Positions 23,899 to 37,861 of a DNA stretch of 39,145 bases are shown piece by piece. Position numbers and translations under genes: made by a program. The notes under the pieces are model-generated. The model was not told the origin of the DNA. It was given only the letters and a program-made list of their open reading frames with translations, and did not search any database. Location of the stretch: assembly GCA_021789495.1 (NCBI GenBank), contig JAJYJM010000006.1, forward strand, positions 1-39,145, read 5' to 3'. This DNA is from Nitrospirota bacterium (GTDB lineage: Bacteria > Nitrospirota > JACRHJ01). How positions within the stretch are numbered: position 1 is the stretch's first letter; each line of letters opens with the position of its first letter.

Positions 23899-24732
23899 TC
23901 AATCGCCGCAACAGTCCCCGCCGCAGTATTCCGGTCTGCCGGAGCCGTCCGGAACGCCCTTCTTTGCAAGCAGTTTTATGCTACGAAGGCCAAGGTCGCT
24001 GACGTTGTCCTTTGTGACAATCCCGCAGCCGCATGTAGTCTCCGCGAGGAAAGAGGCGTCGTCGAGCGAGAGGACGGTAATGTCGTCGAAACCGGCGCGC
24101 CTGACAGCAGCGATGTAGTCGTCGTGTTTGACCGCACCGGAGACGCACCCGGTATACGCCTCGACATTCTCCACGACCGCGCGCGGCAGGTCTTTGGTAA
24201 GCACGATGTCCGACACCATAAGCCGTCCGCCGCCCTTCAGGACGCGAAACGCCTCGGAAAATGTCCTATCCTTGTCCACGGAGAGGTTTATGACACAGTT
24301 GCTTATCACGCAGTCTACGGAAGAATCCGCCACGGGCAGATTTTCCACTTCGCCCTGCCGGAACTCGACGTTCGTGAACTTTCCCTCCCCGGCGTTCTTC
24401 CTTGCGCGCGCGAGCATCTCCGGCGTCATGTCCACGCCTATTACCCTGCCGGAAGGCCCTACCCTGCCTGCGGCCAGGAATACGTCTATCCCCGCGCCTG
24501 AGCCTAAGTCCAGCACCACTTCACCCTCCTTCAGGGAGGCAAGGGCGACAGGGTTGCCGCAGCCGACGCCGAGTATTGCTCCCTCCGGCAGGCTCATGAG
24601 TTCTTTTACGTCATAGCCGATATTTTCCTCGTGCGCGAACTTCGGCTTACTCGAACCGCAGCAGCCTCCGGAGGCGCCTTTTGCGATACCGGAGTAAGTC
24701 TTCTGCACGCTTAATTTTATCTTCCTGTCCAT
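23899..24732 (-). CDS. arsM: Arsenite S-adenosylmethionine methyltransferase
   Basis: From the ATG at 24730-24732 the protein has 277 residues. The Rossmann SAM domain shows VLDLGSGAGIDVFLAAGRVG and VIGVDMTPEMLARARKNA. ArsM hallmarks are present: LGVGCGNPVALASLKEGE, SNCVINLSVDKDRTFSEAFRVLKGGG and YTGCVSGAVKHDDY, which supply the Cys residues expected to bind As(III). An extra Cys pair occurs near the N-terminus (GGCCGSSKP), and the C-terminus ends in a Cys-rich tail (PEYCGGDCCGD). The enzyme methylates arsenite, giving volatile or excretable products. It lies four bases after arsR, with its own GGAGG site, so the two form one arsenic-response operon. Confidence 0.93.
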   Translation of the reverse strand: MDRKIKLSVQKTYSGIAKGASGGCCGSSKPKFAHEENIGYDVKELMSLPEGAILGVGCGNPVALASLKEGEVVLDLGSGAGIDVFLAAGRVGPSGRVIGVDMTPEMLARARKNAGEGKFTNVEFRQGEVENLPVADSSVDCVISNCVINLSVDKDRTFSEAFRVLKGGGRLMVSDIVLTKDLPRAVVENVEAYTGCVSGAVKHDDYIAAVRRAGFDDITVLSLDDASFLAETTCGCGIVTKDNVSDLGLRSIKLLAKKGVPDGSGRPEYCGGDCCGD

Positions 24733-24736
24733 AACG

Positions 24737-25195
24737 TCAAACCTCCGCAGGCCGTCTTTTCGGCGCGGATTTCGTCCCCGCGACGCCCGGTTTGCGGCCT
24801 TTTTTAAGCCTCGTTTTATCGGCTTTCGCCTTTGCCGCCTTTGCGGTTTCCTTTGCCTTCCGCGCAGTCTCCAGGCGCTTTTTGTCGCCGTCGAGTTTCC
24901 TGCCGGTAACCCTCTCAAGTGAAGTCGGGACCAGCACGCGGTTCAGCATGTCGCCCGTGTCGAGCTGGTAAAAGCTCCAGCGCCCCTCGCGCCTGTCTTT
25001 TATGAGTCCCGCTTCCCTGAGTATGCCCAGGTGGAACGAGATATTCGGCTGCGTCATCTCCAGGGCCTCCGTGAGGTCGCACACGCATATCTCGTCTCCA
25101 CAGGAAAGGAGCTTTAATATCCTGAGCCTCGTTTCGTCCGCCATCGCCTTGAATACCGGTATAAGCTTTTCCACTTCCTTGCCCTCCCTTTTCAT
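24737..25195 (-). CDS. arsR: ArsR-family arsenic-responsive repressor with basic tail
   Basis: This 152-residue protein has a winged-helix ArsR domain in residues about 8-95 (PVFKAMADETRLRILKLLSCGDEICVCDLTEALEMTQPNISFHLGILREAGLIKDRREGRWSFY). The As(III) site ICVCDL (Cys-Val-Cys) matches classical ArsR, with a third Cys just before (SCGDE). The last 45 residues are an Ala/Lys/Arg-rich tail (KAKETAKAAKAKADKTRLKK and more), like histone H1 tails, absent from ordinary ArsR of about 100-120 residues. It should repress arsRM until arsenite binds. The promoter at 25263-25291 and a 24-bp palindrome at 25237-25260 fit this model. Confidence 0.92.
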   Translation of the reverse strand: MKREGKEVEKLIPVFKAMADETRLRILKLLSCGDEICVCDLTEALEMTQPNISFHLGILREAGLIKDRREGRWSFYQLDTGDMLNRVLVPTSLERVTGRKLDGDKKRLETARKAKETAKAAKAKADKTRLKKGRKPGVAGTKSAPKRRPAEV

Positions 25196-25317: not shown

Positions 25318-26388
25318 TCAAAAAAGAGCGGCGTCCGGTGGCGGGGACTGCGCCTGCTCAGCCGCGACCAAGTTCGACACCCGAAGCCCCACGAGCCGCA
25401 CCGGACGCTCCCACGGGAACTTGTGCAGAAGCCCCAGCCCCGCGCGCATTATAGGCTCGCGCTCAGCCGTGGGACGCTCCATCGTCTTCGCACGCGTTAG
25501 GGTGGTGAAGTCCGAATAACGAAGCTTCACCGTAACCGTCCTGGCCAGGAAATTCCGCTTCTTCAGCCTGTGTTCCAGGTCTTCCGACATCCACTCGAAC
25601 TCTTTTTTTATTTCAAGCATCTTCGCGGTGTCTTTCTCGAACGTCGTCTCTCTCGACAGAGATCGCGGCTCCCACTCCGTAACAAGCTCGGAGTCGTCTA
25701 TCCCGCGCGCGCGCTCTTTAAGGCTTCGACCCCAGTTCTCTCCGAACTCTGCGGCAAGCTTCCCTTCGTCCGCTTCGGCAAGGTCGCCCAGGGTTTTAAT
25801 CCCCATCTTGAGGAGCCTGGCATATGTTACCTCGCCCACGCCCCAGACTCTGTCCGCCCTAAGCGGCGCGAGCCTCCACTGCACCTTGTCCTCAGGGATT
25901 ATCGTAAGTCCGTCAGGCTTCTCAAGGTCGGATGCAATCTTAGCAACGAGCTTGTTCGGCGCGATACCGACAGACGCGGTCAGGCCGGCTTTCTCCTTAA
26001 TGCGCTCCTTCAGCTTCCTGCCGATTTCTTCGGGCGTTCCGAGCGGGCTGTCCGTTATGTCCATGAACGCCTCGTCGATGCCGACCTCCTCGATTGTGCA
26101 GCCGAACTCCCTCAAGACCTCCATCATCTCTTTCGAGATGCGGGAATATTCGGCGTAGTCCACGGGCAAAAAGACGCACGAAGGACACCGGCGATAGGCC
26201 TCCTTGAGCGGCATCGCGGAATGGATGCCGAACTTCCTCGCGGCGTAGTTCGCCGTGGACACAACACCTCGCGTGTTCGGGTCTCCGTTCCCGCCGACGA
26301 CGAGCGGTTTCCCTCTTAGCTCCGGATGCCGTAGCTCCTCTACGCCCGCGAAAAAGGCGTCCATGTCTATATGCAGGATTGTGCGCAT
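25318..26388 (-). CDS. dinB: DNA polymerase IV (Y-family translesion polymerase)
   Basis: The 356-residue protein has the Y-family signature: the first catalytic Asp pair in ILHIDMDAFFAGVE, the NYAARKFGIHSAMPLKEA fingers segment, and the second acidic cluster VGIDEAFMD (SIDEA in most relatives, so Gly replaces Ser here). Helix-hairpin-helix residues lie near VWGVGEVTYARLLKMGIKTLGDLA, and the little-finger domain fills the rest (RETTFEKDT). The C-terminus ends PDAALF, a possible weak clamp-binding motif. It copies damaged DNA, without proofreading. The ATG is only five bases after a TATAAT-like box, and no ribosome site is visible, so a leaderless transcript is possible. Confidence 0.94.
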   Translation of the reverse strand: MRTILHIDMDAFFAGVEELRHPELRGKPLVVGGNGDPNTRGVVSTANYAARKFGIHSAMPLKEAYRRCPSCVFLPVDYAEYSRISKEMMEVLREFGCTIEEVGIDEAFMDITDSPLGTPEEIGRKLKERIKEKAGLTASVGIAPNKLVAKIASDLEKPDGLTIIPEDKVQWRLAPLRADRVWGVGEVTYARLLKMGIKTLGDLAEADEGKLAAEFGENWGRSLKERARGIDDSELVTEWEPRSLSRETTFEKDTAKMLEIKKEFEWMSEDLEHRLKKRNFLARTVTVKLRYSDFTTLTRAKTMERPTAEREPIMRAGLGLLHKFPWERPVRLVGLRVSNLVAAEQAQSPPPDAALF

Positions 26389-26393
26389 AATTT

Positions 26394-26399
26394 ATTATA
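26394..26399 (-). promoter_or_regulatory. Possible -10 box just before dinB
   Basis: The minus strand reads TATAAT at 26394-26399, five bases before the dinB ATG. No good -35 box is present at the right distance (TTCAGG at best). If used, the mRNA would be leaderless. Confidence 0.3.
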
Positions 26400-26421
26400 G
26401 AACTAAAAAATAAAACCTGAA

Positions 26422-27420
26422 CTATTTCGCTACCCAGCAGTGGGGGTCGGGGGAGTTGAAGTCGCCGGTGGTGGCGTAGGCGCGGGCGGTGCAGCCGCCG
26501 AGGCAGTCCTCGTAGTGCTTGCAGGTGAGGCATTTCTCCTTGGGTTTTTTGTTCCGCATCTTTTCAAGGACATTCGAGTGATCCCAGAGGTCTTTCAGGT
26601 CGTCCGTAAGCAGGTTCCCTATGACAACCGGGATGAAACCGCATGGTGTAACGTCGCCGTTCGCGCGGATATTCAGGGACAGCTTTCCGCATGTGCTCCC
26701 TTTGACAATCGCCTGCTCCGGGGCCTTGTGTATCGTCGCCGTGATGGGGTCGTCCATCGATATTCTTATATCCGTTGCCTTCTCCCTGAGCGCTATGGCC
26801 TTCAGGTAAAATTCCTTCCATTCCGCAGGAGAGAGGTCGAGCTCGTCTTTATTTGTGAAACCCATCCCGGCGCATTTGTAGTTATGCAGCGAAATCTGCT
26901 CCGCGCCGAGGTCTCTCGCCTGGCGCACCAGATCCTCGAACTCCGTGTGGTTAATCCGGCATATGACGGAGGATATTGTAAGGCGCACGCCCTGCTCTTT
27001 TAAGAATTTCGCCGCGCTCACGGCTTTCTTGTGGCTTCCTTTAATGTTGCGGAAGTCGTCGTGCACCTCCGGCCTCGTGCTGTCTATGGATATGCCGACG
27101 GTTTTAAAACCGGATTCCCCGGCAAGGGCCGCCTTCTCCCGGGTCATTAAAAATCCGTTGGTGTTCATGGAGACATTGAAGCCGAGGCATGTCGCGTATG
27201 AGGTCAACTCGAAGAGGTCGCTCCGGAGGAGCGGCTCTCCGCCGCCGTAATTAATAAACGGTACTTTATATTTTGCCACCTTCGCCATTATCTCCTTCAC
27301 CTGCTCCGTCGGCAGCTCGGGCGCTTTTTCCGGCCTGGAGTAGCAGTGGCGGCAGTTAAAATTGCACCTGAAGGTAAGGGTCCAGTTGATTGTTACGGGT
27401 GAAAACGGTATCCTACTCAT
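26422..27420 (-). CDS. Radical SAM/SPASM domain protein
   Basis: From the ATG at 27418-27420 the protein has 332 residues. The N-terminus is TINWTLTFRCNFNCRHCYSRP with the CxxxCxxC cluster, followed by the GGGEPLLRSD and GISIDSTRPEVHDDFRNI motifs of the TIM-barrel. The C-terminal SPASM region has Cys in CGKLSLNIRANGDVTPCGF and CLTCKHYEDCLGGCTARAYATTGDFNSPDPHC, enough for two further [4Fe-4S] clusters. Such proteins modify ribosomal peptides (PqqE, MftC) or heme precursors (AhbD, NirJ); the C-terminal Cys pattern resembles both. It overlaps the PqqD-like gene by eight bases, so a peptide-modifying role is favoured. I recall the GeoRSP family as the closest match; not verified. Confidence 0.88.
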   Translation of the reverse strand: MSRIPFSPVTINWTLTFRCNFNCRHCYSRPEKAPELPTEQVKEIMAKVAKYKVPFINYGGGEPLLRSDLFELTSYATCLGFNVSMNTNGFLMTREKAALAGESGFKTVGISIDSTRPEVHDDFRNIKGSHKKAVSAAKFLKEQGVRLTISSVICRINHTEFEDLVRQARDLGAEQISLHNYKCAGMGFTNKDELDLSPAEWKEFYLKAIALREKATDIRISMDDPITATIHKAPEQAIVKGSTCGKLSLNIRANGDVTPCGFIPVVIGNLLTDDLKDLWDHSNVLEKMRNKKPKEKCLTCKHYEDCLGGCTARAYATTGDFNSPDPHCWVAK

Positions 27421-27724
27421 GAACCAGCCAACCCCTTCCGTCAATATCGATAAGAAAATCCCGGACGTCCATCGAAAGCGTCTCCCTGTCTATGTCGAAG
27501 GTCATGGCGAGGGTATCCACAAGGCGCTCCTCGTCGATACCGTCGAGAAGCTTCCATATCTCGCCGCCGAGGAGGTTAAGCTGGTGCATCATACCTGACT
27601 CCACCAGCAGCACCGTTCCCTCGCCGGATGCGTCGTCGCCGCGTTCCATAGCCCTGAGGGCTTCATCTCTGGCCTCTTCCTCTTCGCGCCAGATTATGTC
27701 CGGGTTCCGCCTAATATTGCGCAT
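27413..27724 (-). CDS. PqqD-like peptide-binding protein
   Basis: This 103-residue protein starts at the ATG 27722-27724, with a GGGAG site. Its last 65 residues match the PqqD/RRE fold (GTVLLVESGMMHQLNLLGGEIWKLLDGIDEERLVDTLAMTFDI and DVRDFLIDIDGRGWLVHE). The first 35 residues are acidic (WREEEEARDEALRAMERGDD) where PqqD normally has a short strand. In RiPP pathways this fold presents the leader peptide to the radical SAM enzyme. It directly precedes the radical SAM gene and overlaps it. I found no obvious precursor peptide gene beside it. Confidence 0.8.
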   Translation of the reverse strand: MRNIRRNPDIIWREEEEARDEALRAMERGDDASGEGTVLLVESGMMHQLNLLGGEIWKLLDGIDEERLVDTLAMTFDIDRETLSMDVRDFLIDIDGRGWLVHE

Positions 27725-27738
27725 TGCAGTCTCCCGCC

Positions 27739-28539
27739 TCAGTTTATCTTTACCCTGGCCGAAAGCGCCGGTTCCGTAATGACCCTGCCGATATAGCTCT
27801 CGCGGTGGCGGTCGAAGAGCTTCGGTCTTTCGTCTCCCCACCAGTTCAGGCGGGCGTCTATATCTCCGGCCTGACCTTCGCCGAGCTTTATGTCGTAGTC
27901 CCTGTTTCCCTGGAAGTTATTATATTTGATCCTTGCGCCCTCGCATCCCTGGCGCCAGAATATCCCGGTGCTGTCGTCCGTTATATCGCTGTTGTGGATA
28001 TACGGCGCGCCCTTCCAGTAGCGCATACCAATCTGCATACCCTTGAGGACGCAGCCTGCAATCTCGACTCTGCCGCCCTTTCCGCGGATGCCTCCGAAGC
28101 TGTTGCGCATGAAGGTGCAGTCCGAAATCTTTATCTTCGTATGATGGATATGAAGTCCCCAGCCTCCGTAGCGGAAGTCGCAGTCCGCAAAGGAGCTCCC
28201 CTTGCTCCTTATAATCTGTATCTCTCCCCAGTCTCCCGGCCTGGGCCTTTGCGCCGCCGAGGTAAATCTTATCCTCGCGCCGGGCAGGCCGTCCGCTATT
28301 ATCGTCCCAAGTATCAGCATCCCGCACTGCGCAAGCCCGGTATCGTCCTGCTTCGCCGGGACGAACTTAACGACTGTCCCAGGCTCGATTTTGAGGGTCA
28401 CTCCGGGCTTCACCAATAACCGGCCTGACACCTTTACCGTCCCGGTCCAGACGGCGTCAGTCCTGAGCGTAGCGGCGAAGGCCTGCGCGGAAAACAATAC
28501 GGCGACAATAACGACCGGTAAGATTGCAATTTTTTTCAT
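27739..28539 (-). CDS. Secreted right-handed beta-helix protein (paralog 1)
   Basis: This 266-residue protein starts with a signal peptide (MKKIAILPVVIVAVLFSAQAFA). The mature part begins with a cap (VWTGTVKVSGRLLVKPGVTLKIEPGTVVKFVP) shared with the three other paralogs, then PRPGDWGEIQIIRSKG and short beta-strand coils such as IKISDCTFMRNSFGGIRGKGGRVEIAGC, as in NosD/CASH-type helices. It ends with ARLNWWGDERPKLF, the Asn-Trp-Trp-Gly motif common to the family. It overlaps paralog 2 by four bases (ATGA) upstream and precedes the PqqD-like gene by 14 bases. The function is unknown; NosD relatives help metal delivery, others bind carbohydrate. Confidence 0.85.
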   Translation of the reverse strand: MKKIAILPVVIVAVLFSAQAFAATLRTDAVWTGTVKVSGRLLVKPGVTLKIEPGTVVKFVPAKQDDTGLAQCGMLILGTIIADGLPGARIRFTSAAQRPRPGDWGEIQIIRSKGSSFADCDFRYGGWGLHIHHTKIKISDCTFMRNSFGGIRGKGGRVEIAGCVLKGMQIGMRYWKGAPYIHNSDITDDSTGIFWRQGCEGARIKYNNFQGNRDYDIKLGEGQAGDIDARLNWWGDERPKLFDRHRESYIGRVITEPALSARVKIN

Positions 28540-29534
28540 TTAACCGTGCCGGGCACTTTTGTTTTGAGGAACGGCCTGAAATTGACCAGCCCAAGGCTGT
28601 CGTCCGTTCTTTTATCGTAAAACTTTGCCTTGATCTTCAAAGGGTCGGTGGTGCCCCACCAGTTGTTTGAGGCGTCAACGTCCACCGGGGTCTCCACGGC
28701 CAGCGCGATATTGTATTCCTTGTTGTATGCAATGTTGTTTAAGTGTATCTTGAGCGGCGCCGCCCTGAAAAGGAAAACGCCCTTGCCGTTTTTCTCTATG
28801 TCGTTGTAGGCGATTCTGCCTTTATCGCCCTCGTGCAGCCAGATTCCATAGAACTTGTTGTTCGATATGTCGTTGTGGAGGATTGTTATCATGGCGTACC
28901 TTGCGGAAATGCCGGAGAGGTTGCCCACGATTGTGTTGTCCTCTATGTCCATTACGCAGGTGTTGTTGAAATTCGCCTTTATAAACGAAAGCGCCGTCCC
29001 GTTGTCATGGAATATGCACTTCGTAACCTTCGCATGGGAGGCGTGGTTGTGTATGCCGTTGTAGGCGTAGGATATACGGCAGTATTTGAACACGTCGCCG
29101 TTCGAGCCCAGGAGGTTTACCGCTCCCCATATGCCGGGATGCGGAGCCGGGTCCGCGGAAGTGAAGATTATCGGCCTGTCCTTCGTGCCAACGGCGATTA
29201 TCCTTCCCCGAATGATTATCTCCGCGCCCGGGAAGTACGGGATTCCGGGGCCGCCGATGCTGAACATGTTCCTCCCGCCCTGGGACTCCAGTTTCGGCGC
29301 AATCGTGTCGAACCTTATTACTGTCCCCGGCTTTATGGTGAGCGTAACTCCTTTCTTAACGTACACGTCGCCGGTTATCCTTATCCGGCCTTCCCACGTC
29401 GTATCCTTGACCATGGTATACAGTCCGAGTTTAGTCTCCCTTAACTCGGATTTCGTAATCGGCTTTACCTCAGCGCACGACGCAAGACCGGACAGCATAA
29501 CCAGAAGAATCGATGAAAATAATATCTTTTTCAA
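28536..29534 (-). CDS. Beta-helix lipoprotein (paralog 2)
   Basis: From the TTG at 29532-29534 the protein has 332 residues. The start is preferred because an AAGGAGG site lies 6 bases before it and it yields a lipoprotein signal (MKKILFSSILLVMLSGLASC, Cys20). The cap TTWEGRIRITGDVYVKKGVTLTIKPGTVIRF and IIFTSADPAPHPGIWGAVNLLG match the other paralogs. About ten beta-helix coils follow (DIEDNTIVGNLSGISAR, ILHNDISNNKFYGIWLHEG, RIAYNDIEKNGKGVFLF), closing with DASNNWWGTTDPLKIK. Anchoring to a membrane makes it the probable hub of the group. It sits between a small TPR gene and paralog 1. Confidence 0.86.
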   Translation of the reverse strand: MKKILFSSILLVMLSGLASCAEVKPITKSELRETKLGLYTMVKDTTWEGRIRITGDVYVKKGVTLTIKPGTVIRFDTIAPKLESQGGRNMFSIGGPGIPYFPGAEIIIRGRIIAVGTKDRPIIFTSADPAPHPGIWGAVNLLGSNGDVFKYCRISYAYNGIHNHASHAKVTKCIFHDNGTALSFIKANFNNTCVMDIEDNTIVGNLSGISARYAMITILHNDISNNKFYGIWLHEGDKGRIAYNDIEKNGKGVFLFRAAPLKIHLNNIAYNKEYNIALAVETPVDVDASNNWWGTTDPLKIKAKFYDKRTDDSLGLVNFRPFLKTKVPGTVK

Positions 29535-29545
29535 TAATAGCCTCC

Positions 29546-29941
29546 TTATTTTTTCGCCTTCAACAAAGCCTTTTCCGCCATAAACCGCTGTCTGCAACCA
29601 TTGTCGTTCTTTATCTTTAGCGCCCTTTCGTACCAGGCCGCCGCCTGCGAAGGATCTCCAAGCCTGCTTTCCACAATCCCAAGGCTGTCCAACGCGTCGA
29701 AATTCCTTGCATCGATTTTCAATATATCAAGGAACTGCGCGCGCGCCTTATCCAGTTTGTTCTGCCGGAGATAGACCATCCCAAGCTTGTTGCGGGTCAG
29801 CGTGTCGCTCGGCTGCATGCTGATGATCATCTGATATTCCATAACCGCGACCGAATCCGGCAGAAGCTCGCCCGTGTAATGCGCGAATGCCGGAACAGGC
29901 GCCAAAATCAAAATAAAAAACAGCGCAAGAATTAATTTCAT
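29546..29941 (-). CDS. Small exported TPR protein
   Basis: This 131-residue protein has a signal peptide (MKLILALFFILILAPVPAFA), followed by three TPR units: about SVAVMEYQMIISMQPSDTLT, RNKLGMVYLRQNKLDKARA and ALDSLGIVESRLGDPSQAAAWYERALKI. I chose the ATG at 29939-29941; a TTG one codon upstream is possible. It probably acts as a periplasmic adaptor for the beta-helix proteins around it. It lies 27 bases after paralog 3 and 11 before the start of paralog 2. Confidence 0.82.
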   Translation of the reverse strand: MKLILALFFILILAPVPAFAHYTGELLPDSVAVMEYQMIISMQPSDTLTRNKLGMVYLRQNKLDKARAQFLDILKIDARNFDALDSLGIVESRLGDPSQAAAWYERALKIKNDNGCRQRFMAEKALLKAKK

Positions 29942-29968
29942 CAAGACCCTATATCAATCCCTGTTTAT

Positions 29969-31084
29969 TTATTCCTGTCCGCCGGCGGCAGAAACGACAG
30001 GTTCGATTTTAAAGGGCCGGTTCGCCTGAGGGAGCATGGTCACCTTCCCCAGGGCAGCATCCTTGCCTTTGTCGTATAAAAGCTTCGCCGGGTCCACCCT
30101 GTAGGGAGGCCCGAACCAGTTCCCGGTCGCATCCACGTCCTTTTTGCCGCCGTTGTCTATCGCCCAGACGCCGTTTGCCCGTATGTTGTTTCCGGCTATT
30201 TTCACGTCCGAATCCGTGATGGATATCCCGGTATAGCCGTTCCCGGTAATCTGGTTGCCGGTAACGGCGCCATTCGAGCGTTTAAGGTATAGTCCGCTTT
30301 CGTAGTTGTCCGCCAGCACGTTGCCGGTTATCTCAACCTGCGATTTGTCCGCCGAAATCCCCTTCCTGTTATCGCGCAGGATATTGCCGGACACCTTGAC
30401 CTTCGTCTCGCTGAACGTAATCCCGTTTATGAGGTTGCCGGCCAGCATATTGCCGGTAATCTCCGCCCTGCCGTACAGGAACCTTATCCCCCAGAGATTA
30501 TCGTGTATGTTGCAGTTTTTAATTTTGAGCCTGGAGTCCCTGAAAACTATTGCCCCGCATTTATTATCGTTTATCTCGCAGCGCTCGACGTCGAGATCCG
30601 AGTCCTGGCATTGAATGCCCATGTAATTGTGCCTGAGCTTTGAATCGGTTATGGAGGCCTTCGAGAAATGCATGTGAAAGCCGCGATAACCATACTCGAT
30701 TATGCAGTGGGAGAGCCTGTTTATCCTGCCCTGGCTCACCATGATATTCACCGCGCCCCAGTCCCCCGGCCTCTTGATTTTTTCAGCCGAAGTGAACACT
30801 ATCGGTTTATCCGCAGTCCCCTTTGCGACAAGCCTGCCCTGGATGTATATCTCGTTCTCGCCGATGCCGTCGCCGTCCGCGTCGTTTCTTGTGAACTCGA
30901 CTTTTGTCCCCGGCAGGACCGTAAGGGTCGCCTTCGGCCCGAACTGAATCACTCCGTCGATTATAACCGTCCCGCTCCAGGTTTGGTCGATATTATACGT
31001 CTGGTCGTGCAGGCGCAGGATGCCGCCGCTTGCGAATGCAACACCGGGAAATATCAAAATCAGTATAAATAAAACTTTATTCAT
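29969..31084 (-). CDS. Secreted right-handed beta-helix protein (paralog 3)
   Basis: At 371 residues this is the longest of the four. A signal peptide (MNKVLFILILIFPGVAFA) is followed by TWSGTVIIDGVIQFGPKATLTVLPGTKVEF, IVFTSAEKIKRPGDWGAVNI and about a dozen very regular coils: RNYMGIQCQDSDLDVERCEI-like, KIKNCNIHDNLWGIRFLYGRAEITGNMLAGNLINGITFSETKVKVSGNILRDNRKGIS. Each coil is 22-23 residues with Asn/Gly turns, as in NosD. It ends DATGNWFGPPYRVDPAKLLYDKG. It lies 19 bases after the NicO transporter gene. No catalytic motif of pectate lyases or other beta-helix enzymes is apparent. Confidence 0.86.
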   Translation of the reverse strand: MNKVLFILILIFPGVAFASGGILRLHDQTYNIDQTWSGTVIIDGVIQFGPKATLTVLPGTKVEFTRNDADGDGIGENEIYIQGRLVAKGTADKPIVFTSAEKIKRPGDWGAVNIMVSQGRINRLSHCIIEYGYRGFHMHFSKASITDSKLRHNYMGIQCQDSDLDVERCEINDNKCGAIVFRDSRLKIKNCNIHDNLWGIRFLYGRAEITGNMLAGNLINGITFSETKVKVSGNILRDNRKGISADKSQVEITGNVLADNYESGLYLKRSNGAVTGNQITGNGYTGISITDSDVKIAGNNIRANGVWAIDNGGKKDVDATGNWFGPPYRVDPAKLLYDKGKDAALGKVTMLPQANRPFKIEPVVSAAGGQE

Positions 31085-31103
31085 AATCGCGGGTGCGGTT
31101 TCT

Positions 31104-31970
31104 TTAAATTACATGCATTATCGAGCCGTATAGGGTAGCAACGCCGATAAGCGTTACAAGCACGGCGCTCGCAAGCGATATGTACGGCGCCGCCTTTTCC
31201 ATGTCCATGAACCTGCCGGCAAATCCTGCCGTCTTGACAACGCCTACGCCGATGGCAATCAGCGCAAATGCCAGGCCGAGCGAGAAGACTATCACGAGGC
31301 TCAAGCCTTTGGCAACGGCGCCTGCGGAAACCGCCGCGAGAAGAAGTGCAAATGCAGCGGGACAGGGCACTATGCCGCCCGATATGCCGAGCAGGAAAAG
31401 TTTCCATAACGAGGGTTCCTCGCCCGGCCCCGGCGCGTAATGGGTATGGGAAAACCCTCCGTGGGAATGCGTATGATGATGGTCATGCTCATGCTCATGG
31501 TCATGGCCGACATGCAGATGAGAATGTTCATCGTGTATGTGCTCGTGCGGGAGTTCGTGTTCATGTTCGTGGTCATGATCGTGGGAATGGTCGTCGTGCC
31601 CATGTCCGTGATTGTGATGTCTGAGTCTTTGCAGGGCCCCGAAACGCTTCCATATCATGGAGATGCCGACGCCAAGGATAAGCGCCGCCGCGACAAAACC
31701 GAGATAAATATGCAGTTGCAGGCCGGTGAACCTTTCCGCGAAAAACCTCGCCAGTACCGCCAGGACTATGATGCTGAAGGTATGCGTGAAGGTTACGATA
31801 ATGCCGAGCAGAAACGCCTCGTAAACCTTTGCTTTCGAGCCGACAAGATATGCCGCGACGACCGTTTTCCCGTGCCCGGGTTCAAGCGCGTGGAATGCGC
31901 CCAGGATAAACGCCGCGATATAAAACCCGGTCAAGCCGCTGCCCTGCAAGTTGCTTAAGAAATCCTGCAT
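31104..31970 (-). CDS. NicO/RcnA-family metal transporter with His-rich loop
   Basis: The protein has 288 residues and six or seven transmembrane segments. The NicO signature GAFHALEPGHGKTVVAAYLVGSKAK is at residues 24-48, and a second conserved segment GGIVPCPAAFALLLAAVSAG follows the loop. The loop after the third segment carries 28 His residues in about 60, with Asp/Glu, as in RcnA nickel/cobalt efflux proteins. It probably exports Ni2+ or Co2+, though other divalent metals fit. It overlaps the stop of paralog 4 (TAATG) and is followed by paralog 3, so its place among periplasmic helix proteins is unusual. Confidence 0.88.
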   Translation of the reverse strand: MQDFLSNLQGSGLTGFYIAAFILGAFHALEPGHGKTVVAAYLVGSKAKVYEAFLLGIIVTFTHTFSIIVLAVLARFFAERFTGLQLHIYLGFVAAALILGVGISMIWKRFGALQRLRHHNHGHGHDDHSHDHDHEHEHELPHEHIHDEHSHLHVGHDHEHEHDHHHTHSHGGFSHTHYAPGPGEEPSLWKLFLLGISGGIVPCPAAFALLLAAVSAGAVAKGLSLVIVFSLGLAFALIAIGVGVVKTAGFAGRFMDMEKAAPYISLASAVLVTLIGVATLYGSIMHVI

Positions 31971-32638
31971 TATAGCCTCGTAATAAAATCCACTTTGTTA
32001 TTCGCCACCTTCGTATGATCAATTCCCGCTTCGGATCCCTTCCCAGACAACACCCCGAAGTCGTTCCCGGCAATGTCGCAGGAGTATACCATGGGCCATG
32101 ATTCGCCGAGGCATACGACCCCGTAATTGCCGCCCGTGAGGTCGCAGAAATTAAAGACGGGCGAGGAATTTATTGTCGTAATCGCCGAATCCGCAAAGCT
32201 TATGGAAGCATGAGAGACAACGCTGTCGGACGAGTCGGGGCCGTCGAATATCAGGCCGGCCCAGCAGCCCTTTTTGGGGTTTATCCTGTTTCCGTCCTCG
32301 TCTTTGCCTGCGGAGCCGAAGATTATCGGCTCTTTCTCCGTGCCCTTCGCCAGGAGTTTGCCCCGGACAAGCAGCTCGGTCTGCATGGAAAGATACAAGG
32401 GTTCGATCTTCGAGCTCTCGCTTGATACGAACAGGACTTTTGTGCCCGGATCTATCTTCAGCGTTACGCCGTCCGGCACAAGCACGTCGCCTGTCACCAG
32501 CACCGTCCCGGACCATTCGGCGCTCTTTTTTATCACGCCCTCCACCTGTTTTGGCCCATCACCGCCCAGGGCGCGCGAGGAGATAATAAGGGCAAGAATA
32601 AAGCCGATTGTAAAAAATTTAATGGGTTTCATCCGCAT
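31970..32638 (-). CDS. Exported beta-helix-like protein (paralog 4)
   Basis: From the ATG at 32636-32638 the protein has 222 residues; the ATG at 32632 is an equal candidate. The N-terminus has a signal peptide (MKPIKFFTIGFILALIISSRALGG). The cap AEWSGTVLVTGDVLVPDGVTLKIDPGTKVLF and LLAKGTEKEPIIFGSAGKDEDG match the other three paralogs. The C-terminal half is a short beta-helix (ASISFADSAITTINSSPVFNFCDLTGGNYGVVCLG) lacking the NWWG end, so it is the shortest and possibly truncated version. It shares the TAATG overlap with the NicO gene and follows the response-regulator gene by 24 bases. Confidence 0.82.
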   Translation of the reverse strand: MRMKPIKFFTIGFILALIISSRALGGDGPKQVEGVIKKSAEWSGTVLVTGDVLVPDGVTLKIDPGTKVLFVSSESSKIEPLYLSMQTELLVRGKLLAKGTEKEPIIFGSAGKDEDGNRINPKKGCWAGLIFDGPDSSDSVVSHASISFADSAITTINSSPVFNFCDLTGGNYGVVCLGESWPMVYSCDIAGNDFGVLSGKGSEAGIDHTKVANNKVDFITRL

Positions 32639-32662
32639 TTGATTAAAATGCAATTTCCGTTC

Positions 32663-34048
32663 CTACTCAGAGAGTTCCGCCGATACAAGCCCGTATTTTT
32701 CCAGTTTATACCGAAGCGTGCTGCGTTTAAGGCCCAGGGCCGCCGCCGCCGCGGTCTGCGAGCCGCCCTTTTCCTTCAGGGCCTTGACAATAAGTTGTCT
32801 TTCCAGTTCCTCCAGGACGTCCGTCAAGGTCCCGCCGCCTTCCGGAAGCTTTACAACGTCCGCGTCCTCGGCCTCATGGCGCAGGGAAAGAGGCAGGCTC
32901 GAAGGGGTAATAGTCTCGCTCTTTTCGAGCACCACCGCGCGCTCGATTATGTTCTCCAGTTCCCGGACGTTTCCGGGCCAGTCGTAGCGCGTCAGCATGT
33001 CCATCGCGGCGGGTTCTATGCCCTCCACTTTCTTGCCCGTCTCCCCGGAAAACTTAAAAAGAAAGTGCTCCGCAAGGCCTGGAATATCGTCTTTTCTTTC
33101 CCTGAGCGGCGGGATGCTTATGTTTACGACGTTCAGGCGGTAGTACAGGTCTTCCCGGAAACGCCCCTCCTTTACGGCCTCCATGAGGTCTTTGTTTGTT
33201 GCGGCTATAATCCGCACGTCCACCTTTATCGTCTTTTCTCCGCCGACCCGCTCGAACTCGTGCTCCTGTAAGACCCTCAGGAGCTTAAGCTGCGTCGATA
33301 CCGGTATCTCGCCTATCTCGTCCAGAAAAATCGTCCCCTCGTCCGCAAGTTCAAAACGCCCGGCCTTTCGCTTTATCGCTCCCGTAAATGCGCCCTTTTC
33401 GTGGCCGAAAAGCTCGGATTCCAGGACTCCTTCGGCGAGCGCGGCGCAGTTAAGTATCACGAGCGGCTTGCCTTTCCGCCTGCTGTTGTAATGTATGGAG
33501 CGGGCCACGAGCTCCTTGCCGGTGCCGGATTCGCCCTGTATCAGGACGCTGGCGTTCGTCGCCGCCACCTGGCTCACAAGTTCGTAGACCTCTTCCATTT
33601 TGCGGCTTTTGCCCACGATGCCGGTAAAGCGGTATTGTTCCTCCAGCTCCTTGTGAAGCTCCCGGTTCTCTCTTATCAGTCGTTCGCGTTCCAGAGCCTT
33701 CCCGACGACGTGCTTTATCTCTTCCATCTCGAAGGGCTTGCTCAAGTAATCGTACGCCCCAAGGCGCATTGCCTCCACGGCGGACTGTAGCGAGCCGTAT
33801 GCGGTTATCATCACGACGGAGAGGGAGGGATCTTTTATCTTGATTTTCTTTAAAAGCTCAATGCCGTTCATGGACGGCATCTCGATGTCGAGGATTGCAA
33901 GGTCGTAGTCTTCCGAGTTCATGGATTCGATCGCGTCGGCCCCCTTCTCGAACGCGTTAACGGAATATCCGCTCTTGGCCAGCACCCGGCCAAGCAGGCT
34001 CCGCATCCCAGGCTCGTCATCTACAACCAGTATCCTCTCGTCCGGCAT
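32663..34048 (-). CDS. NtrC-family sigma54-dependent response regulator
   Basis: The 461-residue protein has a receiver domain (phospho-acceptor Asp in LAILDIEMPSMNG, near residue 54; VVMITAYGSLQSAVEAM), a central sigma54 activation AAA domain (Walker A GESGTGKE; GHEKGAFTGAIKRKAG with the sigma54-contact GAFTGA loop; FLDEIGEIP) and a Fis-type DNA-binding helix-turn-helix at the end (SQTAAAAALGLKRSTLRYKLEKYG). It activates sigma54 promoters after phosphorylation, probably by the kinase encoded just upstream. A separate promoter (34154-34182) also lies before it. I see no -24/-12 site in the gaps of this cluster, so its targets may be elsewhere. Confidence 0.94.
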   Translation of the reverse strand: MPDERILVVDDEPGMRSLLGRVLAKSGYSVNAFEKGADAIESMNSEDYDLAILDIEMPSMNGIELLKKIKIKDPSLSVVMITAYGSLQSAVEAMRLGAYDYLSKPFEMEEIKHVVGKALERERLIRENRELHKELEEQYRFTGIVGKSRKMEEVYELVSQVAATNASVLIQGESGTGKELVARSIHYNSRRKGKPLVILNCAALAEGVLESELFGHEKGAFTGAIKRKAGRFELADEGTIFLDEIGEIPVSTQLKLLRVLQEHEFERVGGEKTIKVDVRIIAATNKDLMEAVKEGRFREDLYYRLNVVNISIPPLRERKDDIPGLAEHFLFKFSGETGKKVEGIEPAAMDMLTRYDWPGNVRELENIIERAVVLEKSETITPSSLPLSLRHEAEDADVVKLPEGGGTLTDVLEELERQLIVKALKEKGGSQTAAAAALGLKRSTLRYKLEKYGLVSAELSE

Positions 34049-34153
34049 TTATAATTTAGCTTTCTCGTTTTGCGCGGGTAAAAACAAATTGCAAGCACAT
34101 ATTCCGTAAATGCAACGACAGGTTTTATAACTACAGAACCTTAAAGCTTTTTC

Positions 34154-34182
34154 ATTATATTTCAATTCCGGGCTATGCTCAA
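34154..34182 (-). promoter_or_regulatory. Sigma70-type promoter of the response-regulator gene
   Basis: On the minus strand TTGAGC (34177-34182), a 17-base spacer and a perfect TATAAT (34154-34159) are present. The -35 box overlaps the end of the kinase gene. The leader to the regulator start is about 100 bases long. Confidence 0.65.
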
Positions 34183-35717
34183 GAAATTTCGGGTTTCCCG
34201 GATGTCCCGGCGGCGGCTATACCGGTCTTCAGCTCGTCCGGGAGTGAAACGGTGAATGTCGCGCCTGCTCCGGGGGCGCTTTCCACCCACACCTTGCCTC
34301 CATGCTCCTCCAGGAGCCTGACACATATCGGAAGCCCCAGCCCTGTTCCCTCGCCCGGGCGTTTGGTGGTGTAGAAAGGGTCAAAAATCCTTCCCATGTT
34401 TTCAAGGCTTATCCCGGGGCCGGTATCGCTGAAAGATATCCGCACCTCCCCGGCTGTCTCTTCATGCCTGAGTTTTATGTCTATATTACCCCCATCCGGC
34501 ATCGCCTGGGCGGAATTTATCATGAGGTTCATAAATACCTGCCTGAGCCTGTCCGGGTCAGCCATTATCTTCGGGACGGGTGAAGTATCAAGGTTTATCT
34601 TTACGTCCCGAAAAAGCCGCTGCGTCTTTGCGGCCTCGACCGTCTGGCCCAGCGACTCCGTGAGGTCGGTCGGCGCGACTCCGAGGGCCGGAGGGCGCGA
34701 GAAATCGAGCAGCCCCCTGACAATGCGCTTGCAGCGCCTGCTCTCGTCCAGTATCCTGGTAAGGTCTTCGCGTCTTGGGTCGCCGGGAGGCGCGTCTTCC
34801 AGCAAAAGCTCCGCAAAGCCCATTATCACACCGATGGGGTTGTCTATCTCGTGGGAAAGCCCCGCCGCAAGCTGGCCCACCGCGGCCATCCTCTCGGAAC
34901 GCACAAGTTCCGTCTGCAGAAGCCTAAGCTCCTCGTTTGCGGCAACCAGGCTCCCGTTGGCCTCTTCCAGATCCCGCCTGTGTCCCTTCAGCGCACTCGC
35001 CATGGAATTAAACGACCGTCCAAGTTCGCCAAGCTCGTCCTCGCGGTCAAGTTCCACCACCTGGTCGAGGTCGCCTCCCTCTATCGCGCGGGCGCTCTCC
35101 TTCAGGGCGAGTATCGGGTTTATAAGCTTGGCTGCGAAGACTGCCGCCGTAACCACACCCACGAACATGAAAATAACGGTCAGAAGCAGGAACTGCTTCC
35201 TGATGCCTACAAGCCTCTGTTTAAGTGAGTGGTAGGATATTATATACCTGACCTTCAGAAACTGCGGCCCGCCGTTTTCTGCGGCGGGAGCCAGAATGTC
35301 AATGTATTCCTGGCCGTCCGGCCCGTAGTATTTTTTTACGTCGATGGTATTCAGGGGCAGCCTCTCGGAGAGCGACCGGTCGGTAACGGGCATATGCCCC
35401 GGAGTGCCGCCCGAATCCCAGAGTATAAGCCCGGACTGGCTGATAATCGTGAGCCGGACAAGGTCGGGATAGTATCTGAAGAACTTCAGCATCTGCGTCC
35501 GGACGTCCTGTTTTCCGCCGGATTCCCATGACAGCGAACCGTAGGTATGGACGACTTCCGTGGCGGTAAGCCTGGCGAAAAGCTTTCCCTGCTCCACAAG
35601 CTGTTTTTTGCTGTCGGCCTTCTCGGTATGGAGCATGACAGCCGCGTTTATCCCGATTATCGCGACAACCAGGCAGGATGCGAACGTTATTACCTTGGTC
35701 CTGAGGCCGAAGTGCAT
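34179..35717 (-). CDS. Two-component sensor histidine kinase
   Basis: The 512-residue protein has an N-terminal membrane segment (residues about 8-28), a periplasmic sensor region of about 130 residues, a second membrane segment (QFLLLTVIFMFVGVVTAAVFAAKL), a HAMP linker (INPILALKESARAIEGGDL ... ELGRSFNSMASAL), a HisKA domain with H-box GLSHEIDNPIGVIMGF, and a HATPase domain with N box MINSAQAMPDGG and G boxes DTGPGIS and GTGLGLPI. It autophosphorylates on His and passes phosphate to the NtrC-type regulator downstream. Its ATG overlaps the ResB stop by one base (TGATG). The signal sensed is unknown. Confidence 0.94.
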   Translation of the reverse strand: MHFGLRTKVITFASCLVVAIIGINAAVMLHTEKADSKKQLVEQGKLFARLTATEVVHTYGSLSWESGGKQDVRTQMLKFFRYYPDLVRLTIISQSGLILWDSGGTPGHMPVTDRSLSERLPLNTIDVKKYYGPDGQEYIDILAPAAENGGPQFLKVRYIISYHSLKQRLVGIRKQFLLLTVIFMFVGVVTAAVFAAKLINPILALKESARAIEGGDLDQVVELDREDELGELGRSFNSMASALKGHRRDLEEANGSLVAANEELRLLQTELVRSERMAAVGQLAAGLSHEIDNPIGVIMGFAELLLEDAPPGDPRREDLTRILDESRRCKRIVRGLLDFSRPPALGVAPTDLTESLGQTVEAAKTQRLFRDVKINLDTSPVPKIMADPDRLRQVFMNLMINSAQAMPDGGNIDIKLRHEETAGEVRISFSDTGPGISLENMGRIFDPFYTTKRPGEGTGLGLPICVRLLEEHGGKVWVESAPGAGATFTVSLPDELKTGIAAAGTSGKPEIS

Positions 35718-37027
35718 CAGACCGGCTCCACTTCCTGCATAAAGCTCTTGATTATCCCGCCGTATTCACGCATGAAGCCCTGCATGTCCTTGTTGGAAGT
35801 CCCGCCTATGAATATCCGCCCGTCCTCGACGGTTATCCATATCTGCCTGTGATAAAAGAAAAACGAGAGGAACAATCCCGCCATGAGAAGAATAAATCCG
35901 GCCCAGACGACCGGGACCCCCGGATCCTCAACCAATTGGAAACCGGAATAATATCTGCCGAGCGCATCGCGGGCGTACGACGTCAGGTATACGGTCATGC
36001 CGTCGTATTCCATCGGGTTGTTTATCTCGATTACGGCCCGCTTCGCATCCATCCCGTTCTTCACAATCCGGACGCTGCTCGCTATGTTCTTAAGTATCGG
36101 CCCGTTGAAAGATCCCACGGTAAAGATATACCCCAGACTCGGTGGGGCGGCGAGTCCGCCGTCGGGCGCGCCGGTATTGTAGGAGCCCAGAAAGTTTTCC
36201 CCGTCGTAGATGTCAAGAACGGCCTCGCGGCTCTCCATATCGACATTCTTCGGCTTTATCTTCAGCTTCGTGCCGGGTATGGAGAAGAACTTCCCTTCCA
36301 TAGCGCTGAACGTACCGAGCATGGCGCCGGTATTGCCGTCCCGCACGTTGACCTTCATCTCCACCGGGTAATGTTCCAGCGTGAATTTATCCACATAAAG
36401 CCTGAAATTCAGAGGCCTTTCTTTTCCCGCGCTCCAGTCGTAGAATCTGTCCGCGTAATCACCTTGATAAATATTGACCGTGCCCACCATCCCCATGCTG
36501 CCGATAAGGCCGCCAAGGAGCACAAGCAGGATGCTCGCATGTGTTATCATGTCTCCCCAGGGACCGAGCTTCCCCTTGAAGCCGTAAATACAGTGCCCGC
36601 GCTTGATTACGCTGTATTTTCTGTCCTTAAGCGAGCGTTCAAGTATATCCGCCCCGGACGTTACGGGCAGTTCGTTATGTATCCTGAGATTTTTTATGTC
36701 GTTGCCGGTTTTTTCGGCATTTGGCCTGAGCGTCCTTTGCATAAGCCTTTTAAACCTGCCCATGCTGCACACCACCAGGTTCAGGGCAAGCATGGCCATA
36801 ATCGCGCGGAAGCCCCAGGAGTGATAGAGGTCTATTACGCCAAGGAGTTTCAGGTATTTGTAATCGAGTACGCCGTATTTGCCGATATAAAAAGACGGCT
36901 CCTGCCCCTGCGGCAGAAATGTCCCGAAAACGGACACCGCCGCAAGCATGATGAGCAGGAATACCGCCAGGCGAAGCGAAGAAAAAAACCTCCTCCCCGC
37001 GCCCCATATGCGGGTTATGGGTTTCAT
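35717..37027 (-). CDS. ResB-family cytochrome c biogenesis protein
   Basis: The 436-residue protein has four membrane segments: FFSSLRLAVFLLIMLAAVSVFGTFLPQG, SWGFRAIMAMLALNLVVCSMGRFK, MITHASILLVLLGGLIGSMGMVGTVN and a last one (VVWAGFILLMAGLFLSFFF). A large extracytoplasmic domain spans about residues 180-370. This is the ResB (Ccs1) layout; ResB acts with a ResC/CcsA-type heme handler to attach heme to c-type cytochromes. No CcsA/ResC gene is present here. Its ATG directly abuts the stop of the lipoprotein gene before it and it overlaps the kinase gene, so it sits inside the operon. Confidence 0.93.
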   Translation of the reverse strand: MKPITRIWGAGRRFFSSLRLAVFLLIMLAAVSVFGTFLPQGQEPSFYIGKYGVLDYKYLKLLGVIDLYHSWGFRAIMAMLALNLVVCSMGRFKRLMQRTLRPNAEKTGNDIKNLRIHNELPVTSGADILERSLKDRKYSVIKRGHCIYGFKGKLGPWGDMITHASILLVLLGGLIGSMGMVGTVNIYQGDYADRFYDWSAGKERPLNFRLYVDKFTLEHYPVEMKVNVRDGNTGAMLGTFSAMEGKFFSIPGTKLKIKPKNVDMESREAVLDIYDGENFLGSYNTGAPDGGLAAPPSLGYIFTVGSFNGPILKNIASSVRIVKNGMDAKRAVIEINNPMEYDGMTVYLTSYARDALGRYYSGFQLVEDPGVPVVWAGFILLMAGLFLSFFFYHRQIWITVEDGRIFIGGTSNKDMQGFMREYGGIIKSFMQEVEPV

Positions 37028-37780
37028 CTATCTCTCATCCGAAAACCTGCCAAGCCTTATATTTATCCCGTCCGTGAAAGCGCCGTCCCTGACTGTCACG
37101 GAGTGGTCGCGGCTTCCCCTGTATTTCCCGTAAGGCTCATCCGGCCCCGGCGCGCCCATCAGGCCGGTGCGAGCGCCGATATAATATTTTCCGGGCTTGT
37201 CCACATATATCACGAACTTCCCGTCCTTCCTGCTCCACCCGGAGACAAAATCCGGCCTGCCCACCATCCTTCCGTCCTTGTACGCAAAGGCATACGCCTG
37301 TTTGAACGGCCTCCCGCTCCTGTCCATTATCACGCCGCGTATGCCCTGCCGCCCGACGCTGCCGGAGAAGAGCATATTGCCGGAAAAAACATACAGGGAG
37401 AGATCCATCTTGTAGGTCTTTCCCTGTTCGATTTTCATCCGGACTGCGTCCGGGGTGTATAAATCTCCCTTTTTGAGGTTCCCGGAAATGCTCCCGGACA
37501 TGCGCTTCCTGGCAACGACATAATACTTTCCCGGAGGCACCTCCGTGTAATATCTGCCGTCCGGCCCCGTCGGTTCCGCCATGAAATCAGCCGGGCTTCT
37601 GAACTTGCGCTCGGAACTGACATAGAAATAAACCTCGGCGTCCTTCAGGGGCTTTCCGGCCTCGTCCGTAAGCCGGCCTTCCACAACCCCCGGACGAATA
37701 TTTCCATAGAAATCATTCTTGTGCGCGCAGGCGGAAACGAGAAGTAAAACCACGGCTGCCGGGAACAGATATTTTTTCAT
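37028..37780 (-). CDS. Carboxypeptidase-regulatory-like (Ig-fold) lipoprotein
   Basis: From the ATG at 37778-37780 the protein has 250 residues. It has a lipoprotein signal (MKKYLFPAAVVLLLVSAC, Cys18) and two Ig-like carboxypeptidase-regulatory repeats: VVEGRLTDEAGKPLKDAEVYFYV ... DGRYYTEVPPGKYYVVARKR and GIRGVIMDRSGRPFKQAYAFAYK ... DGKFVIYVDKPGKYYIGAR. Such folds bind partner proteins or surface polymers. An AAGGGG ribosome site precedes the start. A strong hairpin with U-tract ends the HEAT gene only 20 bases before this start. It is the first gene of the ResB-kinase run. Confidence 0.88.
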   Translation of the reverse strand: MKKYLFPAAVVLLLVSACAHKNDFYGNIRPGVVEGRLTDEAGKPLKDAEVYFYVSSERKFRSPADFMAEPTGPDGRYYTEVPPGKYYVVARKRMSGSISGNLKKGDLYTPDAVRMKIEQGKTYKMDLSLYVFSGNMLFSGSVGRQGIRGVIMDRSGRPFKQAYAFAYKDGRMVGRPDFVSGWSRKDGKFVIYVDKPGKYYIGARTGLMGAPGPDEPYGKYRGSRDHSVTVRDGAFTDGINIRLGRFSDER

Positions 37781-37800
37781 ATTTCCCCTTGAGGCTTGCA

Positions 37801-37836
37801 AAAAGAGGCAGATGGAACCTCCCCCACCTGCCTCCG
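37801..37836 (-). terminator. Rho-independent terminator (or attenuator) after the HEAT lipoprotein gene
   Basis: On the minus strand GAGGCAGGTGG pairs with CCATCTGCCTC (11 bp with one G-U pair) around an eight-base loop and is followed by five U residues (37801-37805). It lies 26 bases past the HEAT stop and about 20 bases before the next start codon. Confidence 0.75.
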
Positions 37837-37861
37837 AAAAATCTTACAGCAAAAATACCTA

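Follow-up and report, generated by a model that had tools for sequence, protein, structure and literature searches.

A PqqD-like protein and a radical SAM/SPASM protein that are encoded side by side in a Nitrospirota genome can be classified as a GeoRSP pair by NCBI's own models. We propose that the substrate of this pair is a peptide of 18-20 amino acids that is encoded by a separate tiny gene (we estimate the probability of this at roughly 80%). To judge by the sequences, the pair and the peptide are a candidate for radical SAM RiPP-like maturation with a very short precursor, which has a lasso-type recognition motif and is multiplied and scattered among envelope genes. A defined candidate substrate with an RRE motif would make the GeoRSP enzyme testable at once, with synthetic peptides. 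Annotation misses such precursors because most gene finders do not accept genes this short. Also, the link to giant multiheme cytochrome genes and surface genes is suggestive of a role in bacteria that respire metals or sulfur.

The GeoRSP gene pair

The pair lies within what we will call the window, which is the stretch of 39,145 nucleotides that we analyzed (positions 1 to 39,145 of contig JAJYJM010000006.1, GenBank assembly GCA_021789495.1). The two genes and their upstream neighbor are:

26422-27420 (-): putative GeoRSP radical SAM/SPASM maturase, 332 aa; TIGR04303 461.1 bits (equivalog cut-off 400); PF04055, PF13186
27413-27724 (-): putative GeoRSP PqqD-family peptide chaperone (predicted RRE domain), 103 aa; TIGR04302 103.2 bits (equivalog cut-off 100); PF05402 51 bits; model pLDDT 93.2, TbiB1 fold match
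27739-28539 (-): beta-helix protein, 266 aa, in the same operon as pqqD by spacing; PF13229 31.8 bits

Both proteins of the pair exceed the NCBIfam equivalog cut-offs, which agrees with the initial annotation of the pair as GeoRSP-like, and the anatomy of the pair bears out its description as a peptide-modifying unit. The PqqD-like protein is the single match to PF05402 in the genome. As read from its sequence, the radical SAM/SPASM protein contains a CNFNCRHC motif and, in its SPASM domain, C...C, CLTCKHYEDCLGGC, and C.

The stop side of the radical SAM/SPASM ORF is at 26422, and the mechanical ORF begins at TTG 27444, which is the first possible start. Our gene call instead begins at ATG 27420; at this position, the N terminus MSRIPFSP is common to all five genomes of the genus that we compared. 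Given this start, the two genes overlap by 8 bases (27413-27420), as had been noted. The dinB gene (25318-26388) follows the radical SAM gene after 33 bases, and 14 bases separate pqqD from the beta-helix gene. Gaps are at most 130 bases throughout 25318-38770, which confirms that no short precursor-like gene lies beside the pair, and we rejected a precursor at that site.

Both genes of the pair are under purifying selection in the genus: dN/dS ranged from 0.034 to 0.076 for the radical SAM gene and from 0.076 to 0.146 for pqqD (10 pairs each). Given these values and the scores against TIGR04302 and TIGR04303, this is no chance pair of ORFs.

The next-best models for the radical SAM protein are from the heme branch, but its scores are far below their cut-offs: AhbD (196.2 of 500 bits), NirJ2 (182.9 of 500), NirJ (164.8 of 515.45), AhbC (146.5 of 650), and NirJ1 (141.4 of 650). 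The profile searches thus place it outside the AhbD/NirJ branch, which the initial annotation had weighed as an alternative. A separate protein, on contig C17 of the same genome, has AhbD as its best family (432.6 bits, below the cut-off of 500). A tree that we built from 44 radical SAM sequences placed 25 GeoRSP proteins in one group (support 92/96) apart from this AhbD-like protein; the tree had no NirJ, and it left out the GeoRSP proteins of loci L120 and L141, which lacked a suitable gene call. We know of no PqqD partner for AhbD or NirJ.

When we searched the open-access literature for GeoRSP by name, by family number, or by the ending of the peptide, we found nothing; in that literature, GeoRSP seems to be an orphan system.

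The PqqD-like protein is predicted to have an RRE fold

We modeled the PqqD-like protein using AlphaFold2 with 26 relatives (mean pLDDT 93.2). The top matches from Foldseek were complexes of the lasso peptide protein TbiB1 with a leader (5v1u, E = 1.3e-4). Using VIA-align 2, the model matched 5v1v (lasso TbiB1 with leader) with Z = 12.2, an rmsd of 1.8, and 83 aligned residues, followed by 6jx3 (Z = 11.0) and PqqD itself (5sxy, Z = 9.2); non-RRE chains (8hkr, 5dpl) appear at Z = 8-9.5 in the same list. As modeled, the protein has the RRE fold, so the initial doubt as to whether its domain lies within that fold is not borne out.

The acidic N-terminal extension of this protein, which had been suggested to act as a tether, is real. 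It is predicted to be ordered (strand, strand, helix; ten-residue blocks with pLDDT of 87-96), and the TIGR04302 model (102 positions) covers residues 1-101. The extension is thus, in the predicted structure, a part of the family and of the RRE domain, and a free tether is not supported.

The SPASM partner

GeoRSP is also represented by a third family, the SPASM protein TIGR04304. The initial annotation held that this partner is missing here. None is encoded beside the pair, where dinB comes next, and the best match to TIGR04304 in the assembly (97.3% complete) is the pair's own radical SAM protein, at 55.9 bits. But the partner was not simply lost from the lineage: four members of the genus encode a diverged and unlinked TIGR04304-like protein (89.8-97.9 bits; cut-off 300). 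For the TIGR04304-like protein of genome G003, TIGR04304 is the best family. Three other genomes with the pair (G280, G298, and G300) had no match to TIGR04304 at 1e-20, so this partner is not constant in the family.

A family of tiny peptides near GeoRSP genes

We collected GeoRSP neighborhoods from 16 Nitrospirota genomes (those with TIGR04302 at 85 bits or above, among 295) and from genomes that belong to the same phylum as a deltaproteobacterial contig. We compared 412 small intergenic ORFs from 38 loci, all within 4 kb of pqqD, to each other. This unsupervised comparison yielded one family, which was present in 10 loci. With a profile of 23 distinct 18-mers, all members had E values of 2e-5 or better and the next hit had E = 1.1 (43,611 segments). 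In a wider set, members had E values of 4.9e-5 or better and the next hit had E = 2.3; the best hit among 92,140 segments of a shuffled control had E = 2.5. Altogether, 25 of the 42 GeoRSP genomes that we examined in part contain the peptide, with 35 copies in total. (Some of these copies served to build the profile; nine are not in it.)

The peptides have the form M[KR]x(1-3)YxxP[RKS][VI]x[GA]xxx[VI]HPC-stop and are 18-20 amino acids long. The Y, P, [VI], H, P, and C are invariant in all 35 copies. Each of the 35 genes has a start codon (31 ATG, 2 GTG, and 2 TTG) and a Shine-Dalgarno-like site, where we took the nearest start that is preceded by one. By codon position, the entropy of the gene is 0.71 bits (first), 0.73 bits (second), and 1.50 bits (third). 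Such variation, greatest at the third base, is expected for a translated gene rather than for a DNA signal. Ten of the peptides were compared to NCBIfam and Pfam models, and none had a match up to E = 10.

We did not find the peptide in the partial stretches (3.7-60 kb each) of the other 17 GeoRSP genomes, in three further GeoRSP loci (L009-L011), or in 48 loci that lack a GeoRSP radical SAM gene (569,640 bases, comprising loci rather than whole genomes).

Several other candidate precursors were considered and rejected. Among the conserved small ORFs of the genus, only a known 72-aa Se/S-carrier-like protein emerged. A permissive motif scan of stretches from the genus returned only ORFs within larger genes. 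Long ORFs at L140 and L142 suggested a PqqD fused to an upstream protein, but what precedes PqqD there has no relatives and is a GC-rich open frame, not a fusion partner. A cupin of about 106 aa that is encoded upstream of pqqD (PF07883) occurs in just 9 of 39 loci. Finally, an ORF of 54-85 aa that separates the radical SAM gene from the SPASM gene in L133 and L134 is not an oddity of that lineage, as its C-terminal part is the peptide.

Locations of the peptide genes

In 12 genomes, the peptide gene and the radical SAM gene share a strand, and the former is directly 3' of the latter; in two of these genomes it overlaps the end of the radical SAM gene. Of the remaining 23 copies, 20 are directly before a CarboxypepD_reg or beta-helix gene, again on the same strand. 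For instance, genome G262 has eight copies, and all of them are before genes of these two types. Three copies (in G280, G587, and G000) follow a multiheme cytochrome gene or a fragment of one, and three others (in G197, G661, and G157) follow a gene for a protein of 2,297-2,773 aa without CXXCH. Gene calls and the labels beta-helix, CarboxypepD_reg, PhnD, and YedE come from a simple caller and from BLAST to our own clusters, of which only representatives were checked with Pfam or NCBIfam; the caller fails on some GC-rich loci (L139, L140, and L142).

In the genome that contains the window, our scan covered about 22% of the sequence and found one copy, MKIKYTAPKVVASSSVHPC (19 codons; contig C8, 931-990, + strand). 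It has E = 1.8e-9, and the next hit has E = 1.9. Its ATG is preceded by GGAGG, and the gene is 274 bases behind a fragment at the contig end that is similar to the 27-heme protein of G661 (2.1e-9). The complete contig of the window (C34; 86,830 bases) has no copy. So, a precursor had rightly been reported as lacking beside the pair, but there is a candidate elsewhere in the genome, and in 12 relatives it lies beside the radical SAM gene. The initial annotation had also expected that a substrate would show itself as a conserved small peptide or as a conserved tail on a beta-helix protein. The peptide was found, often directly before a beta-helix gene, but it is encoded by a separate tiny gene.

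In G031 and G039, the gap that follows the radical SAM gene does not contain the peptide. The roughly 300 bases behind the gene in these two genomes (L110, 1394-1711, and the opposite stretch of L111) contain a conserved inverted repeat, GCAGCCTCCGGGCC...GGCCCGGAGGCTGC, which is possibly a structured RNA or a terminator.

Proposed mechanism and similarity to known systems

The motif [Y/W]xxPx[L/V/I/F/A] is described in PMC13381572 as being recognized by discrete lasso-peptide RREs, and a YxxP motif also appears in PMC12710340. The YxxPx[VI] of all 35 peptides fits the lasso motif. Because of this motif, and because lasso RREs are the structural neighbors of the PqqD-like protein, we interpret the N-terminal half of the peptide as its leader and the seven C-terminal residues as the part that would be modified. 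We predict that the PqqD-like RRE binds the N-terminal YxxPx[VI], by analogy with lasso RREs, and that the SAM radical and the SPASM clusters of its partner would modify the C-terminal xxx[VI]HPC. The modified site would most likely be at or near the invariant cysteine. Our first guess for the modification is a thioether or similar cross-link, at somewhat less than even odds.

The proposed system resembles the lasso peptide pair TbiB1-TbiA (5v1u/5v1v) in the predicted RRE fold and in the YxxPx[VI] of the peptide. In contrast to that system, the linked enzyme is a radical SAM/SPASM protein and not a cyclase. Also, only about seven residues follow the conserved Gly/Ala of the peptide, which is too few for a lasso ring with a threaded tail.

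With PqqA-PqqD-PqqE, the proposed system shares a small peptide, a PqqD-type chaperone, and a SPASM radical SAM enzyme, and the best match in PDB by sequence is PqqE (6c8v, 8.2e-23). However, the pair scores just 143.8 of 381.35 bits against PqqE and 28.3 of 46 bits against PqqD, and the GeoRSP peptide has another sequence and is present in several copies in some genomes.

Alternatives to the peptide as substrate

The tiny ORF might instead regulate the envelope genes downstream of it, as a leader (an attenuator or uORF), rather than encode the substrate of an enzyme. This would account for the 20 of 23 copies away from the radical SAM gene that directly precede CarboxypepD_reg or beta-helix genes on the same strand. 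But 12 genomes have the peptide gene after the radical SAM gene, and for at least five of them (L138, L141, L246, L248, and L249) the next called gene has the opposite orientation, which leaves no gene to be attenuated. Furthermore, the amino acid motif matches one that RREs bind, for which a uORF would have no need. We consider a regulatory leader to be improbable.

Another potential substrate is the C-terminal Gly-Cys tail (such as LAGGCE or IAGSCG) of a TPR protein of about 130-190 aa. In all 47 of the TPR proteins that we checked, the chain ends with Gly-Cys and one or two more residues (in one, as AGGCGG), and little else is invariant. In the 295 Nitrospirota genomes, 18 have this protein at 172 bits or above (the next match has 52 bits), and 15 of the 18 are GeoRSP-positive. 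Put another way, it is in 15 of 16 GeoRSP genomes versus 3 of 279 others (Fisher's exact test, P = 2e-21, where relatives are not independent). It is also in all 26 of the radical-SAM-positive genomes of our second phylum sample, which we picked ourselves. On the other hand, six genomes without a GeoRSP match (G013, G062, G072, G549, G664, and G683; those from Nitrospirota are 83-93% complete) keep the tail, which shows that it is independent of GeoRSP. The TPR protein has no YxxP motif at the leader positions that we tested, and, by analogy, its tail has more resemblance to the arm of a sulfur carrier, for example that of SoxY with its GGCGG (PMC6067878). The tail is thus a quite unlikely substrate.

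Last, a tetrapyrrole or other small molecule as the substrate, as for AhbD/NirJ, with PqqD as a relic or adaptor, is hardly credible: although AhbD and NirJ2 are the next-best models and several of the clusters contain multiheme cytochrome genes, the scores fall far short of the cut-offs, the genome encodes a separate AhbD-like protein, the GeoRSP proteins form a tree group apart, and PqqD is maintained by selection.

The surrounding envelope and transport genes

If the tiny peptide is the substrate, we predict that its product serves a large envelope cluster, which includes beta-helix and CarboxypepD_reg proteins, multiheme cytochromes, and a module with a YedE-type transporter. Many of the copies of the peptide lie among genes of this cluster. 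Genes that are common to GeoRSP loci encode a PhnD-like binding protein, the small TPR protein, a YedE-family transporter, ResB-like and OpuAC-like proteins, and the CarboxypepD_reg and beta-helix proteins.

The YedE-family transporter of G015 matches TIGR04112 with 380.5 bits (cut-off 200). Among the 295 Nitrospirota genomes, YedE proteins with 371-403 bits are found in 16, of which 15 have GeoRSP. Another 16 genomes have YedE proteins with 474-497 bits, and none of these has GeoRSP; three more genomes contain fragments. Since the six GeoRSP-negative genomes keep the TPR/YedE module wholly or partly, we consider it to be a partner of GeoRSP and not a proven target. In the genome of the window, the TPR protein (L148, 2058-2576, - strand; on C34 but outside the window) is encoded beside PhnD-like and YedE-type genes, as are 46 relatives. 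A TsuA-like thiosulfate transporter (L148, 3877-4998, + strand; 244.9 bits, cut-off 400) is divergent from these genes.

The nearby YedE-family transporter raised the possibility of a role in selenium metabolism, which we rejected. A search for SelD (TIGR00476 at 1e-30) found no match in the five members of the genus or in G013, while 32 of the 34 other genomes that we searched had one. The lack of SelD in the genus points toward sulfur rather than selenium. (All but one of the SelD matches have one in-frame TGA, as expected for SelD that contains selenocysteine.) In the genus, the module includes a cysteine desulfurase of the TIGR01977 type (by BLAST to our own cluster; the representative of this cluster has 416.9 bits) as well as a Se/S-carrier-like protein (PF11823). 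All 28 of the PhnD-like proteins have two invariant cysteines. SoxT1A, a relative of YeeE/YedE, is proposed to receive sulfur from SoxYZ (PMC11582611).

In cluster stretches from six genomes (G157, G197, G232, G268, G587, and G661), we identified proteins with 27-34 CXXCH motifs; the multi-CXXCH protein of G661 has cytochrome domains from Pfam. At L256, L257, L260, L261, L263, and L267, cytochromes with 27-34 CXXCH (1,471-2,256 aa) adjoin proteins of 2,297-2,773 aa without CXXCH. The GeoRSP cluster at L266 contains an ORF of 5,404 aa.

Under the reading that the pair modifies the tiny peptide, a possible though tentative function is that of a miniature Cys/His peptide (a core of about seven residues that ends with VHPC, with 1-8 copies per genome) for an envelope machine that would carry out extracellular electron transfer or the handling of sulfur. 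Its parts would be giant multiheme cytochromes, proteins of the beta-helix and CarboxypepD_reg types, and an import module with a thiol relay. The import module would be formed by the PhnD-like protein with its two invariant cysteines, the TPR protein with its Gly-Cys tail, and the YedE-type transporter.

The rest of the cluster in the window includes:

28536-29534 (-): beta-helix (NosD-like) protein, 332 aa by gene call, with the ORF from 29597; PF13229 60.8 bits, PF05048 54 bits
29546-29941 (-): small TPR protein with a signal-like N terminus; TPR families
29969-31084 (-): beta-helix (NosD-like) protein, 371 aa; PF13229 72.1 bits, PF05048 63.7 bits
31104-31970 (-): NicO-type nickel/cobalt transport protein; PF03824 86.5 bits
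32663-34048 (-): sigma-54 response regulator, recurs in related clusters; PF00158, PF00072; BLAST cluster
35717-37027 (-): ResB-like protein, recurs in related clusters; PF05140 226.7 bits; BLAST cluster in 16 of 39 loci
37028-37801 (-): CarboxypepD_reg lipoprotein-like protein, recurs in related clusters; PF13620 32.7 bits (cut-off 32.3)

In relatives, the transporters that are encoded near pqqD are of types other than the NicO type. Three loci from genomes without a GeoRSP radical SAM gene at 1e-60 (L143, L145, and L146) encode PqqD-like proteins with 60-66 bits for TIGR04302, which possibly belong to another RRE system. On the other side of the pair, genes for an ArsR-type regulator and a methyltransferase adjoin dinB (23899-25195 of the window, - strand). 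Pfam gives only methyltransferase families for the latter, which we take to be ArsM from its sequence.
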